DNA from: Pirellula sp.
GTDB taxonomy: Bacteria; Planctomycetota; Planctomycetia; Pirellulales; Lacipirellulaceae
Direction: 5' to 3'
Length of the DNA stretch: 64,000 nt
NCBI GenBank assembly: GCA_013822725.1
Contig: PNKX01000009.1
Span: forward strand, 62,001 to 126,000
Position numbers and translations under genes: made by a program. A model generated the notes under the pieces. It was not told where the DNA came from. It saw only the letters and a list, made by a program, of their open reading frames with translations, and searched no databases. Shown piece after piece: positions 3,572-60,010 of this stretch; position 1 is the stretch's first letter, and the number at the start of each line of letters is the position of its first letter.

Positions 3572-3780
3572 AACCACGACGACACGGCGGACACGACGAA
3601 AAGCGGCGACTATTCAGTCTTTCTTTGCGCCTTCGCGCCTTTGCGTGAGATATTGAGAAGAGAAGTTAGGTCTCACGCAAAGGCGCGAAGGCGCAAAGGA
3701 AATACAATGACCGGCAGTGATCGCTCTTAGTTTTCTCGTCGTGTCCGCCGTGTCGTCGTGTCGTCGTGTCGTCGTGGTTA
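3572..3780. repeat. Nested inverted repeat, locus 1 (two layers)
   Basis: Outer arms: about 3572-3600 (AACCACGACGACACGGCGGA...) and 3733-3780, the right arm being longer because TCGTCGTG is iterated. Inner arms: 3622-3650 (CTTTGCGCCTTCGCGCCTTT...) and 3670-3698, nearly perfect complements. One inverted repeat therefore sits in the loop of another. It fills the purU to 3804 interval; both flanking genes read rightward. Confidence 0.88.
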
Positions 3781-52403: not shown

Positions 52404-52784
52404 ATGGAACATGTGTTTGAAGTTGACGTGCGCTACTACGAGACCGATGGCCAGGGGGTGGTCCATCACTCGAACTACTTTCGGTACTTCGAGCTCGCGC
52501 GGGTGGAGATGCTCAAAGCGATGGGGCATGACTACCAGGATCTGGAGCGCGACGGGATCATGCTGGTCGTCCACAGCATCTCGGCCAAGTACCACCGACC
52601 GGCAAAGTTTGGCGACCGGTTGCGGATCGAGACCAAAGTCGTCAAAGCGACGATGGCGCGGATCGAGCATGCCTATCGCGTGGTGGTGAACGGCAAGCTG
52701 ATCGCGGAGGGGGCGAGTACGATTGCTTGCGTCGATCGCGAGGGGAATATTCGGCGGATGCCGGAGCATATTATTGGGGAGTAG
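52404..52784 (+). CDS. YbgC-type acyl-CoA thioesterase (4HBT family)
   Basis: A 126-residue hot-dog-fold thioesterase. The active-site Asp is in YYETDGQGVVHHSNYFRYFE near residue 14, the standard 4-hydroxybenzoyl-CoA thioesterase pattern. Length is typical. YbgC proteins are often near the Tol-Pal genes; none are present here, so the substrate (short-chain or hydroxybenzoyl-CoA) is undetermined. A nested inverted repeat follows directly. Confidence 0.9.
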   Translation: MEHVFEVDVRYYETDGQGVVHHSNYFRYFELARVEMLKAMGHDYQDLERDGIMLVVHSISAKYHRPAKFGDRLRIETKVVKATMARIEHAYRVVVNGKLIAEGASTIACVDREGNIRRMPEHIIGE

Positions 52785-52790
52785 GATTTT

Positions 52791-52973
52791 TTGCCGCGAA
52801 GAGGCGCAGAAGGACGCAAAAAAAGAAGAATAAGACGACCGCGGATTTCGCTGATTGCACGGATGAATTCAGAAGCAGTAAATCCGTTGCATTCATCCGT
52901 GAAATCTGTGCAATCCGCGGTTCAACATTCTTCCCTTATTTTTTTGCGGTGTTTGTGCCTTTTTGCGGCAACC
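52791..52973. repeat. Nested inverted repeat, locus 2 (two layers)
   Basis: Outer arms about 52791-52828 (TTGCCGCGAAGAGGCGCAGA...) and 52935-52973 (ending GTGCCTTTTTGCGGCAA). Inner arms about 52837-52867 (GACCGCGGATTTCGCTGATT...) and 52890-52922 (ending GTGCAATCCGCGGTT). It lies between two rightward genes, and about 20 bases before the PfpI ATG. Confidence 0.9.
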
Positions 52974-52990
52974 AATTTTCACTGGAGTAG

Positions 52991-53566
52991 ATGATGGCCG
53001 CCAAGCGCGTATTGATGTTGATCGGCGACTTCGTCGAGGACTACGAAGCGATCTTTCCGTATCAGGCTGTGTTGATGGCGGGGCACTCGATCGATACGGC
53101 TTCGCCTGGCAAGCAGGCGGGATCGACGGTCGCGACCGCGATTCATGATTTCGAGGGGCATCAGACCTACACTGAGAAACGCGGGCATCAGTTTCCGGTG
53201 ACCATCGATTGGGAAAAGGTCGACGCCGCCAACTACGACGCGCTGGTGATTCCAGGCGGGCGTTCGCCGGAGCATTTGCAGCTGAATGAGCGCGTCATTG
53301 AGATCGTGCAGCAGTTCTTCGCCGCGAACAAGCCAGTGGCGTCGACTTGCCATGGCGGGCTCATTCTAGCGGTCGCCGATGTGGTGAAGGGACGGAAGTG
53401 CCAGTCGTATCCGTCGGTGCGGCCCGAGTTGCAACGGGCCGGAGGAATTTGGGATGAACCGACGCCGGGCCTTGATGGCGTGACCGTCGACGGCAACCTA
53501 GTGACGGCGGCGGCTTGGCCGGGGAACCCGGCTTGGATGCGGGAATTTTTGAAGCTTCTGGCGTAA
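52991..53566 (+). CDS. DJ-1/PfpI family protein
   Basis: A 191-residue class I GATase-fold protein. The nucleophile elbow is PVASTCHGGLILA near residue 118 (Cys followed by His), and the first acid is in VLMLIGDFVEDYEAIFPYQ near 18. It resembles the PfpI/YhbO/YajL group, described variously as proteases, glyoxalases and deglycases; the activity cannot be told from sequence. Either ATG (52991 or 52994) may start; the GGAG fits the second slightly better. Confidence 0.88.
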   Translation: MMAAKRVLMLIGDFVEDYEAIFPYQAVLMAGHSIDTASPGKQAGSTVATAIHDFEGHQTYTEKRGHQFPVTIDWEKVDAANYDALVIPGGRSPEHLQLNERVIEIVQQFFAANKPVASTCHGGLILAVADVVKGRKCQSYPSVRPELQRAGGIWDEPTPGLDGVTVDGNLVTAAAWPGNPAWMREFLKLLA

Positions 53567-53571
53567 ATCTC

Positions 53572-53708
53572 TAACCACCAAGGCACGAAGGAAATCACCA
53601 AGAAGAGAAGACAAATTCAAAAAACAGCAATACAGAGAAGCATTGATGTGAATCCCATGCTTCTCTTTTCTTGGTGTCTTCCTTCGTGCCTTAGTGTCTT
53701 CGTGGTTA
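53572..53708. repeat. Inverted repeat of the nested type, locus 3 (one layer)
   Basis: Left arm 53572-53610 (TAACCACCAAGGCACGAAGG...), right arm 53660-53708 (ending TTAGTGTCTTCGTGGTTA). The loop is A-rich with no second long repeat. It lies in the convergent gap between pfpI-like and GATase-like genes. Confidence 0.88.
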
Positions 53709-53721
53709 GTCTTCAGCGCAA

Positions 53722-53764
53722 TAAAAAAGGCCCGGCGTTGGCTTCCTCTACCAACGCCGAGCCC
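53722..53764 (-). terminator. Terminator of the GATase-like gene
   Basis: On the minus strand GGCTCGGCGTTGG pairs with CCAACGCCGGGCC and is followed by six T (53723-53728 read as AAAAAA on plus). It lies about 100 bases beyond the stop codon at 53865. Confidence 0.85.
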
Positions 53765-53864
53765 GACCTTTTCAACGTAGCGGCCACGCTGAATCCATTC
53801 AGGCCGCTGGAGCACGATGTCCGGACCGCGTGGCGGTCCGGCTAGTGTTTCATCTCGTTGACTA

Positions 53865-54626
53865 CTACGCAGCAACCAGGCTGGGGACGCCGGCCGGAAC
53901 CATGCCGCGGGCGATTTCGACGCCCATGATGAACTCTTCGAAAATTCGCCCGTCGAGCGCTGAGGCAGTCGACGCTTCGGGATGGAACTGGGTGCCGAAG
54001 GCGAACCAATCTTCCATGGTGCTTTCGATCGCTTCGACGATGCCGTCGGGGCAGCGGGCGGTCACTTGGAAGCCGGGGGCGATTTCGTCGACGGCCATGT
54101 GGTGCATGCTGTTGACCCGCAGTTCGCCGTCGCCGTAGACGCGATCCATGATCGAGCCCGAGGCGAGTTGCAACGTGTGGCGGTGATCGGGGTCAAGCGG
54201 ATCGAGATGCGGCAGAGCGCTCGGCATGTCCTCAGGGATGTGGAGCATCAGGTTGCCGCCCTGCGAGACGTTGATCAACTGCATGCCGGCGCCGATGCCG
54301 AGGACCGGCATGCGGTGTTCGGCGATGAGGCGGACCAACATGCGGTCGGACGACTCGCGGCGGGGATCTTGCAGGCGAACGGTCGGGTGGAGCATCCAGC
54401 CGTCGCGACGGGGGTCGAGGTCGGCGCCGCCGATCAGCAGGACGCCGTCGAGGCGGGCGAGCAGGTGCTCGAGGTCTGATTCGTTATCGTACGGAGGAAT
54501 GAGGACCGGCAGGCCCCCAGCTTGCGTGATCGCGTCGAAATATCCGGCGGCGACATACGCGAACGCGGTCGAATTCTGATTAGCGGAACGAAAGTCGGTG
54601 TTGATTCCGATAAGCGGCTTGGACAT
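53865..54626 (-). CDS. Class I glutamine amidotransferase-like protein lacking the nucleophile
   Basis: A 253-residue protein of the gamma-glutamyl-GABA hydrolase (PuuD/peptidase C26) group. The fold markers are there: KPLIGINTDFR at the start, DGVLLIGGADLDP near 60 and GTQFHPEAS near 211 with the His-Glu pair. But the nucleophile elbow, normally GICRGMQ, reads GIGAGMQLINV near 110, so the Cys and its following Arg are gone. A hydrolase function is therefore doubtful and a binding or regulatory role is more likely. The ATG follows AAAGGGA. Upstream is a long gene-free stretch. Confidence 0.85.
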   Translation of the reverse strand: MSKPLIGINTDFRSANQNSTAFAYVAAGYFDAITQAGGLPVLIPPYDNESDLEHLLARLDGVLLIGGADLDPRRDGWMLHPTVRLQDPRRESSDRMLVRLIAEHRMPVLGIGAGMQLINVSQGGNLMLHIPEDMPSALPHLDPLDPDHRHTLQLASGSIMDRVYGDGELRVNSMHHMAVDEIAPGFQVTARCPDGIVEAIESTMEDWFAFGTQFHPEASTASALDGRIFEEFIMGVEIARGMVPAGVPSLVAA

Positions 54627-55121
54627 GGAAGTAATCCCTTTCCGGCGCCATCATGGCGCACCCTGTGGTTTCCCTACGGCGGCGAGCATTGCGGGGGCTC
54701 GCTCGATGAGGCCAACGGAAAGAGGTTCGCTTGCGACCCGCACGGGCGGCAGAAGGTTCGACGGACAACTGAACTCAGATCAAGCGAACTTGGAGCGCGG
54801 CAAACGTGTCGGCTAGCAGTAGCTGGCGTGACGACCCATCCGTGGGCGTTGCAGCGCGGCAATGATTGTCTGAGGCGGCTGTCCGACGCTTCGTGCCCGC
54901 ACGGGGAACTGGGTCGGAACGACTTCCCTATCGACTGGCCTCGAAACTCCTTTTTAGGCGACCGTGTCACCGGTCCGGATCGTGGATGCAAGTCTGAAGC
55001 GAAATGTAACGACTTCGACAGCCTTGGCAAACGAATTGACGATCTTGCGTCGGACAGGCGGTGCTAGCACAAGATGAGCGGGGTTTGGCGGTTTTCTGTG
55101 GGTTCACTTTTGGGATGCTAG
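54627..55121. other. Gene-free stretch
   Basis: About 500 bases between the GATase-like gene start and nested repeat locus 4. A 118-codon frame exists on the minus strand (54674-55030), but its Ser/Arg/Pro-rich translation looks non-coding. No promoter or RNA structure was recognised. Its size is odd for this dense window and may be a decayed gene. Confidence 0.4.
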
Positions 55122-55430
55122 CTAACCACCAAGACACGAAGGCACGAAGGAAGGCACCAAGAAGACAGGGAGGCATTGTTGAGGCAGAGGGCTGGTTTTT
55201 GGGCTGTCAAAGGCGTTTTAACCACGAAACACACGAAAGAAGCGAAAAAGGAGGAGTGATTTGCACCGCTGATTGACGCTGATGATCGCTTATGAATTTG
55301 ATTTCTATTAGCGATCATTAGCGTCAATCAGCGGTGACTCTCCTTCCCCTTTCGTTCATTTCGTGTGTTTCGTAGTTAAAAAGTATTCTTCGTGTCTTCC
55401 TTCGTGCCTTGGAGCCTTGGTGGTTCGCAT
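55122..55430. repeat. Nested inverted repeat, locus 4 (three layers)
   Basis: Layer 1: 55122-55165 (CTAACCACCAAGACACGAAG...) with 55386-55430. Layer 2: 55216-55253 (TTTTAACCACGAAACACACG...) with 55339-55381. Layer 3: 55264-55290 (CACCGCTGATTGACGCTGAT...) with 55307-55336. Each pair is close to fully complementary, so three inverted repeats lie one inside another. Both flanking genes read leftward. Confidence 0.92.
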
Positions 55431-55439
55431 TTAAAGCAT

Positions 55440-56207
55440 TCAGGCAGCGAAGAGGCCGCGGATGAGGTCGAAGCCGATCGTGAAGATCGCGGCGTCGACG
55501 AGCATGTGGCCGAGCCAAGGGCCCAGGAGCGAGCCGGTGCGGTCGTAGAGCCACGCCCAAAAGGCCCCGCCGATCGCGACGCAGGCCGAGAGGAGGTAGG
55601 TGAGCGGGCTGTCGAAGCCGCAGAATTTGCCCAACACCAGGACGTGATGAGCCATGAAGCCGAGAGAGGAGATCACGATCGCCGGCGTGAGCGACGTGAA
55701 GCGGCGGAGTTGGCCGAAGACGAACCACCGCCAGTAGTACTCTTCCATGAACGAGTGGATGAGGGCGTAGAACAGGCCGAGGAGGCCGTACTTCCAGGCG
55801 GAGTCGATCCCCCAGCCGCTGACTTTGCCGATGACGATCTCGGTCGCCTCGACCACCGGGTCGCTGTTGCGCAGCACCGCGAGATAGAGCGCGAAGATCG
55901 CCGCGGCGACGATCGCTCCGAACGCAACGCCGAGTTCGAGGCCTTGCGAGTTGGGCGGACGGAGCGTGACGCGGCCGCGCTGGATCGCCAGCACCCAGAA
56001 GAGCGGAAAGGCGAATTGGATGGTTTTCACCGTACTGAAGATGGTGAGCTGCAGCTGCGGCGGCATCGCGTCGGCCTGGAAGAAGTAGACCCAGGTGACG
56101 ATTGTCGGGAGGACGAGCGCGATGAGAACCGCGACGAGATCGCGCGGGCGCGGCGGCGTGGCGCTTGCCGGCGTGGGAAGTGAGGGCGTTGGTGCAGATT
56201 CGGACAC
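55440..56207 (-). CDS. CPBP family intramembrane metalloprotease
   Basis: A 255-residue inner-membrane protein of the CAAX-protease/bacteriocin-processing (ABI) family. The active-site motifs are intact: the EE pair and Arg in SFMEEYYWRWFVFGQLRR near 155, FMAHH near 184 and the HMLVD motif near 235. About seven hydrophobic helices surround them, after a Pro-rich cytosolic N-terminus of ~20 residues. Substrates are unknown. The stop codon is only 10 bases from a nested inverted repeat. Confidence 0.88.
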   Translation of the reverse strand: MSESAPTPSLPTPASATPPRPRDLVAVLIALVLPTIVTWVYFFQADAMPPQLQLTIFSTVKTIQFAFPLFWVLAIQRGRVTLRPPNSQGLELGVAFGAIVAAAIFALYLAVLRNSDPVVEATEIVIGKVSGWGIDSAWKYGLLGLFYALIHSFMEEYYWRWFVFGQLRRFTSLTPAIVISSLGFMAHHVLVLGKFCGFDSPLTYLLSACVAIGGAFWAWLYDRTGSLLGPWLGHMLVDAAIFTIGFDLIRGLFAA

Positions 56208-57532: not shown

Positions 57533-57548
57533 GCTTGGCGGTTAAATG

Positions 57549-57745
57549 CGGGGATTTTTAACCACGAAACACACGAACTGATACGAAAAAGAAAAAACGA
57601 TTAACCACGAATTACGCGAATCTGCGCGAATGAAATGCCGAGATAAACTGAAAAATCATTCGCGTCAATTCGCGTGATTCGCGGTTGCTCTCCTTCACTT
57701 CTCTTTCGTGTTCTTCGTGTGTTTCGTGGTAAAAAATCCCCGCTC
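57549..57745. repeat. Nested inverted repeat, locus 5 (two layers)
   Basis: Outer arms 57549-57580 (GCGGGGATTTTTAACCACGA...) and 57704-57745 (ending GTGGTAAAAAATCCCCGC). Inner arms 57603-57634 (AACCACGAATTACGCGAATC...) and 57655-57687 (ending GCGTGATTCGCGGTT). It lies between the convergent KAS III-like and GNAT genes, with the GNAT stop codon 7 bases away. Confidence 0.92.
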
Positions 57746-58756: not shown

Positions 58757-58822
58757 GCCGTGATTATGTCACGCGAGTGGGTTGCGGCAAAGACGCACGC
58801 TAGGCGCCGGGAGATGCAAAGT

Positions 58823-59031
58823 CAGGGAAATTGAACCGCCACGGACGCCAAGAGCGCCAAGGAAATGCGGGGAGATTTACCACGAAACACACGAAGCACA
58901 CTAAAAGTGAAAAAGCGTTGCATCGCTCATATTCTTTCTTTGGTGTGCTTCGTGTGTTTCCTGGTAAAAGGCATTTCCCCTTGGCGCTCTTGGCGTCCTT
59001 GGCGGTTATTTCTTGAAATTGCAATTTCCCT
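58823..59031. repeat. Nested inverted repeat, locus 6 (two layers plus a short outer one)
   Basis: Outermost short pair CAGGGAAATT (58823-58832) with AATTTCCCTG (59022-59031). Main outer arms 58833-58867 (GAACCGCCACGGACGCCAAG...) and 58970-59007 (ending GCGTCCTTGGCGGTTA). Inner arms 58874-58906 (ATTTACCACGAAACACACGA...) and 58934-58969 (ending GTGTTTCCTGGTAAA). Confidence 0.9.
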
Positions 59032-59053
59032 GCAAGACAGAGTAGGCGCGGCG

Positions 59054-60010
59054 TCACGCGGCGGGGCGAATCTGATCCTTGCCGCGGCGGCGTTCGCGGC
59101 GGGCGCGGCCGTTGTTCTTTTGCTCCCGCCAGCGGCGATGGAGCCACCAGTATTGGTTCGGGGCGATGCGAATCAGATCTTCCAGGCAGCGGGTGTACCA
59201 CTGCGTCAGCAGAGGAATTGAGCCGAGTTTGAAGTCGGCGTCGGCGGGGTCGACCAGGTCGGCGACCCGCATTTCGAAGTGCATCGGCTCACCCTTCCGG
59301 AAAACGCAGCCTGCCGAGGTGGGGGCGTTGCCGCTGAGCGTAAACAGGGCGACCGCTTTGTGGGTCGAGGCGGGACGGCCGAAGAAATCGACCCAGCAAG
59401 CCGCCTCGCCGGCATGCTGGTCGCCGAGCAGGACGAGCGTGCCGCCCGACTTCAGCAGTTCTTCGATCTGTTGGCTGCTCCCATGTTTCGGGAGAATGTA
59501 CTGGCCGGTGGCCTCGCGGAATTCGTTGATCCAGCGGTCGAGATAACCGTTGTCGAGCGTGCGGGCGATCGTGTGGGTCGGAAAGCCATGAAGGCCGAGG
59601 AGGTAGCCTCCCATCTCGAAGTTGCCGAGGTGGCCGGAGATGATCACCACCGGCCGGCGATCGAGCAGGCGGCGCACCATCAGCCGCATCTGCGGCATCG
59701 CGAGGTGGGTGCGCCAGTTGGTACGGTTGATCTTCCGCGGGGCGTGGGCGATCTCGCAGACCATCAGCAGCAGATGTTCCCACATGGCGAGCGCGATCGC
59801 TGCGTGCTCGGCCGGCGACTTGTCGGGGAAGGCGGTCTGGAGATTTTCTTCCACCGTGGCGCGGCGGAGTTTGAAAACATGCCAGAAGAGCCAACCAAGC
59901 CGCCGCGACCAGGCTTGGCACGTCGACAATGGCGCCGCCTGGATGATGCAGACGACGGTGCGCACCGCGACGTAGGCGGCGTAGTCGATGATCAGCTTCG
60001 TACGATTCAC
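59054..60010 (-). CDS. LpxL/HtrB-type lipid A acyltransferase-like protein
   Basis: A 318-residue membrane-associated acyltransferase. The catalytic HX4E motif is SGHLGNFEMGG near 130, followed by TLVLLGDQHAGEAACWVDFFG near 200 as in LpxL-type enzymes. An N-terminal hydrophobic segment (AAYVAVRTVVCIIQAAP) would anchor it. The C-terminus is very basic. The start GTG at 60010 has AAGGA upstream; the frame to 60055 needs a TTG. It implies acylated lipid A or a similar lipid in the outer membrane, in line with a Gram-negative-type envelope. Confidence 0.87.
   Translation of the reverse strand: MNRTKLIIDYAAYVAVRTVVCIIQAAPLSTCQAWSRRLGWLFWHVFKLRRATVEENLQTAFPDKSPAEHAAIALAMWEHLLLMVCEIAHAPRKINRTNWRTHLAMPQMRLMVRRLLDRRPVVIISGHLGNFEMGGYLLGLHGFPTHTIARTLDNGYLDRWINEFREATGQYILPKHGSSQQIEELLKSGGTLVLLGDQHAGEAACWVDFFGRPASTHKAVALFTLSGNAPTSAGCVFRKGEPMHFEMRVADLVDPADADFKLGSIPLLTQWYTRCLEDLIRIAPNQYWWLHRRWREQKNNGRARRERRRGKDQIRPAA

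Follow-up and report, generated by a model that had tools for sequence, protein, structure and literature searches.

The window, a stretch of 64,000 nucleotides from the source genome (G000, positions C9:62001-126000), carries three collinear nested pairs of inverted arms at 55124-55425, in the gap between a class-I GATase-like gene and a CPBP/Rce1-like gene. Each layer of this nest belongs to a separate repeat family (d, b, and g, from the outside inward), and the locus is laid out as follows.

53865-54626, minus strand: class-I GATase-like gene (Peptidase C26), one flank of the nest gap
55124-55163, plus strand: outer layer, left arm, family d (AACCACCAAGACACGAAGG...), orthologous in G003
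55164-55215: left spacer between the outer and middle layers, single copy in the search of its own genome
55216-55252, plus strand: middle layer, left arm, family b (TTTTAACCACGAAACACACGAA)
55264-55293, plus strand: inner layer, left arm, family g (CACCGCTGATTGACGCTGATGATCGCT)
55294-55306: apical loop of the nest, inside the inner g arms
55307-55336, minus strand: inner layer, right arm, family g
55345-55381, minus strand: middle layer, right arm, family b
55386-55425, minus strand: outer layer, right arm, family d, which also aligns with the right arm in G004
55440-56207, minus strand: CPBP/Rce1-like gene, the other flank of the nest gap

The outer arm pair, taken at 55121-55166 and 55383-55428, was 85% complementary, the middle pair 84%, and the inner pair 93%, and the inverted-repeat score of the nest was 69, compared with a best score of 14 in local Markov shuffles of the window. 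The three successive nested inverted repeats described in an earlier note on this DNA were thus confirmed. So was the proposed hairpin stack of about 300 bases: the predicted fold of a single strand was one stack of ~300 nt containing all three layers, both as DNA (-99.6 kcal/mol; z, -15.1) and as RNA (-160.7 kcal/mol; z, -19.5). The spacers, called short in that note, were so on the right side, where the outer and middle layers are separated by almost nothing, but not on the left, where the distance is ~50 nt; no second copy of this left spacer was found in its own genome. A search of Rfam with the nest gave no match at the gathering score and returned just miRNA precursor models far below the cutoffs, as expected from any long hairpin, and a known structured RNA was therefore rejected. 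A Rho-independent terminator was rejected as well, since no G+C-rich stem with an immediate T run was found in 55124-55425. A literature search with the repeat sequence word produced no match.

In the superfamily to which these units belong, each arm is an array of degenerate ~9-nt repeats, and most units have AACC...GGTT ends. The family a arm reads AACC-GCCAAGGAC-GCCAAGAGC-GCCAAGG, and GAAATGC is common at the inner edge of family a and c arms. A loose arm pattern matched 329 arms in G000, 99 in Lacipirellula limnantheis I41 (G003; NZ_CP036339.1), and 158 in G004, a third species of that genus; G001, G002, and G005, three further genomes of the same GTDB genus, had no match, and the backward pattern, used as a control, gave 0 matches. 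Judged from these matches, the superfamily is a lineage-specific burst in three Lacipirellula-clade genomes. Across the phylum, 67 of 294 genomes had at least one match, mostly few, and in G219, from a distant family of the phylum, a family a unit with the same 18-mer stands as a lone 67-bp hairpin with a 12-nt tip. The arm arrays vary in copy number independently, as seen at G000:C1:11309 and G003:C1:6434357, where the 9-nt repeat GAGCACGAC is expanded in one L. limnantheis arm and the loop is 95% identical.

The loops of families a, c, and d had near-chance similarity between copies, were ~95% alike between orthologs where both retain the unit, and failed to align with the gap of relatives that have no unit. 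No paralogous loop was found for these families in the sample, and a search of its own genome with the whole nest matched arms and b/g-like stretches only. Several d units (G000:C1:177308 and others in G003 and G004) hold a further repeat family, TCATCCTGAGCGGAGCGAAGGATCTAG, in their loops, which is outside the census described below. Open reading frames derived from repeats occur in the window at 53498-53875, 52727-52990, and 58800-59201 (NHEDTKARRK, TADFADCTDE, and ITAKDAKSAKGK); they are probably spurious, though they could be annotated as hypothetical proteins.

Nesting was counted in 1.65 Mb (769 kb from G000 plus 440 kb from each of the other two species, G003 and G004), where 396 of the 521 good arms had an inverted partner. 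The census requires both arms of a unit to be recognized, and some seemingly empty loops hold families outside the model; it contained 346 paired units, 217 from the superfamily, in a total of 17 families. Nesting is real, strongly nonrandom, and ordered. Fifty-five superfamily units were enclosed by the loop of a second one, compared with just 2 pairs lying side by side (at most 150 bp apart). For G000 alone the counts were 30 of 109 superfamily units nested and 1 pair side by side, compared with 1.7 nested (maximum, 7) and 8.9 side by side (minimum, 3) expected from 300 runs of random intergenic placement. All 55 nested pairs followed the order a > {d,c,b} > {e,f,g,h,i}, with no inverted and no within-family case, and the host-capable families (a, b, c, and d) among themselves were in rank order by 16 to 0. 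Units of d, c, b, e, f, and i occur inside family a, and members of e, f, g, h, and i inside d, c, and b; family b can also sit inside d or c, and the reverse never occurred. The GTAG-type REP family r4 may stand outside superfamily units, and the REPIN-like families r1, r2, and r3, the first two of which adjoin Y1 genes of this clade, were not nested in the sample. Thus, the suggestion that any one type may take an inner or an outer place held for the middle families (b recurs as the outer layer at 57548-57743 and as the inner layer at 58876-58968, as the earlier note had stated) but not otherwise, the family order being strict. At one locus, G000:C1:7907-8157, the arms are interleaved and not nested (left c, left a, an e hairpin, right c, right a); its ortholog in G004 is without the left a arm.

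Many gaps carry quite different families across the three species. Five further hairpin loci in the window were compared, the last two of them nests within 4 kb of the three-layer nest.

3575-3760: nest c > i
52815-52948: two-layer hairpin of other families
53576-53707: single d hairpin
57548-57743: nest b > e, between convergent KAS III-like and GNAT genes
58834-59007: nest a > b with outer arms AACCGCCACGGACGCC (C9:120834), inner b at 58876-58968

The first of these gaps holds c > i in G004 also and the GAATGACG family in G003, the second c > f in both species, and the third an unrelated hairpin in G003 and a three-layer nest of the c > b > e/g type in G004. A different hairpin family, of the GAATGACG type, occupies the fourth in both relatives; in the fifth, G003 has a > f plus the remnant of one c arm, and G004 has no such arms. 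In total, nine orthologous sites (C9:129037, C9:120834, C9:155730, C9:57433, C9:164486, C1:1480, C1:90637, C1:140301, and C1:176303) had a common outer unit and an inner unit that differed or was missing between species; a gap with a common inner and a different outer unit was sought, and none was found. At C9:129037 the flanks of the one outer hairpin agree in all three species, and its occupant is e (G000), f (G003), or b (G004). At C9:155730 the outer b holds e in G000 and i in G004 and is empty in G003, and at C9:164486 r4 stands alone in G004 but has a hairpin inside it in G003. The C1:140301 site is a > c in G000 and G004, and only G003 has a different inner unit, which thus represents a replacement.

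The gap of the three-layer nest behaved differently from what the earlier note had expected. Gene order is conserved around it, and all three layers were present in G000, G003, and G004, while no hairpin was found there in G001, G002, G005, or G011. This is the all-or-none pattern that the note had set against its own proposal of intermediate states with one or two layers, and the order of insertion is not readable at this gap. The idea of separable units is supported genome-wide, by types at several depths and nine sites with a changed inner unit, but not at the gap for which it was put forward. In G004 the right arm of the outer layer aligns with that of G000, and the left arm has decayed. 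In G007, a genome of a different genus, the GATase-CPBP gap has a single c-type hairpin (L228; JAADGV010000098.1, 2765-2949); this is probably an independent event, because the family is different and so is the distance, and it would point to recurrent use of the gap. Substitutions between G000 and G003 in the stems of the three layers broke 19 pairs and kept 6 through one-sided changes, with 0 two-sided changes. Thus, the changes break more pairs than they keep and look like neutral decay, and selection for the fold was not seen at the nest.

The units have the composition of REPINs, with inverted conserved ends, a variable spacer (loops near chance), and a hairpin fold. However, no Y1/RAYT gene (PF01797) with superfamily ends was found among the loci viewed in G000, G003, G004, and eight arm-bearing genomes of the phylum; the viewed Y1 genes were flanked by other hairpins or by none. 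A cognate RAYT was rejected, as the RAYTs seen in this clade lie beside hairpins of other families. In the same genus, ordinary REPIN-RAYT pairs lie at G000:C2:21715-22633 (L108), G004:C1:3206040 (L115), and G000:C9:41616-42054, where Y1/RAYT-like genes have hairpin families of their own nearby (GGGGTCGGGGACC, AAAGCCGCGACCGGCGG, and GGGTGGCACGCC). Assignment to the GTAG/CGTC class of REPs was also rejected, the flanks of the nested families being (T)TGAACC, TTTTAACC, and GGAACC, without a GTAG or CGTC tag; it is the separate family r4 (GTAGCCGCGGG...) that begins with GTAG. Facing arms 0.45 to 4 kb apart numbered 5, versus 4 in the opposite order, with no excess that would point to an autonomous partner between them in the 1.65 Mb covered.

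Our reading, with moderate confidence, is that the nest consists of three REPIN/MITE-like repeats and that new units prefer the apical loop of an existing hairpin. A new unit would settle preferentially in the loop of a hairpin already present; stacks would therefore grow from the outside inward, and the occupant of a loop would turn over faster than the outer hairpin. We infer that an enzyme supplied in trans may transpose a single-stranded hairpin into the exposed loop; by analogy, a HUH/Y1-type enzyme would fit this step, a single-stranded loop being a natural target of the Y1 type. Neither such an enzyme nor a target-site signature was found in the loci viewed, where the flanks in empty-site alignments were 80 to 87% identical, too diverged to place insertion points or to read a target-site duplication. 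Other observations also count against loop insertion. Arm-to-arm identity gave no sign that the inner units are younger than the outer ones (normalized difference, -0.02; P = 0.09). The arms of family a, which among these families is always the outermost, are some of the best matched (0.94, compared with 0.85 for c and 0.81 for d). Copying of a whole hairpin would copy its loop, yet the loops are unique per site and conserved between orthologs, which argues against simple copy-and-paste. The viewed Y1 genes are without these ends, and the C1:7907 arms are interleaved. With neither a cognate transposase found nor a measurably younger age of the inner units, and with a different loop at each site, the mechanism is unproven.

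The main rival, which we regard as rather unlikely, is an exchange of cassettes, in which outer arms that are common to many loci recombine or convert and swap whole interiors, so that nesting would reflect the arms used and not insertion into loops. The high homogeneity of family a arms is consistent with this, as are chimeric pairs (at C1:176303, for example, both G000 and G003 combine a left c arm with a right a arm) and the C1:140301 site, where G003 has a replacement for the c unit and also a different number of repeats in the outer arms. However, conversion should leave donor interiors, whereas no paralogous loop turned up in the sample and no match to the nest beyond arms and b/g-like stretches in its own genome, and arms of 20 to 40 nt are short for homologous recombination. 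A function at gene ends, as bidirectional terminator or 3' protection of mRNA, for which any hairpin would suffice and occupants would be replaced while the site stays filled, is improbable. Convergent gaps had 24 hairpins in 23.3 kb, a higher density than the 19 in 41.6 kb of divergent gaps, and one gap is often filled by different families across species and even in another genus; but only 23 of 91 convergent gaps hold a hairpin, the nest has no terminator-like site, its stem changes break pairs and do not compensate, and by pattern the superfamily is missing from three genomes of the same genus. It is likewise doubtful that a dedicated system spreads arms alone, placing them as an inverted pair around otherwise unique DNA and preferentially in the loops of higher-rank families, with an enzyme that is neither a RAYT nor a known transposase and with the rank order as a targeting code between families. 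Local mutational growth, with template switching or slippage at hairpin tips adding arms without mobility, agrees with the short tandem arrays, the one-arm copy number difference at C1:11309, and the unique loops, but is very improbable, since identical arms occur at hundreds of places, with the family a 18-mer even in G219, and growth de novo cannot account for them at unlinked sites.

If insertion into loops is correct, small bacterial repeats find in hairpin loops a landing place that is both safe and preferred. The ordered stacks would then record successive repeat invasions of the genome, and the system would be a natural test of target choice by REP-like elements without a recognized transposase. 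The nests also account for many of the spurious small ORFs (KDAKSAKGK and NHEDTKARR types) expected from planctomycete genomes.

REPINs are inverted REP doublets with conserved ends and variable spacers (PMC3116915), and the units described here resemble them in being intergenic and present in hundreds of copies, with two conserved inverted ends and a less conserved spacer, as well as in their hairpin fold and lineage-specific amplification. They differ in that the ends are ~9-nt repeat arrays with AACC rather than a REP 16-mer, no RAYT gene was found adjoining them, and they are nested in a fixed family order. Repetitive hairpin elements of sponge mitochondria, which form double hairpins via tandem insertion (PMC2800124), are similarly mobile-like and intergenic with variable loops, whereas here nested arrangements far exceed tandem ones. 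Single-strand targeting is established for IS200/IS605 (PMC6006769). Insertion sequences that target REPs (ISPpu9, ISPpu10, ISPsy8, and others; PMC1525189) likewise use hairpin repeats as insertion targets, but there the insert is an autonomous element and here it is another small hairpin. REP dimers within other palindromes are known for A. variabilis GTAG-15, T. roseum GTAG-23, and H. neapolitanus CGTC-1 (PMC3733652, section 7) and share with our nests a palindromic repeat inside another palindrome; those cases have two layers and fixed partners, whereas the stacks here reach three or four layers, draw on about ten families, and have partners that are interchangeable between species. Since REP dimers in palindromes and insertion sequences in REPs have been published, hairpins as targets are not new. 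Overall, two-layer precedents exist in the literature, and the ordered multilayer system is the new part.
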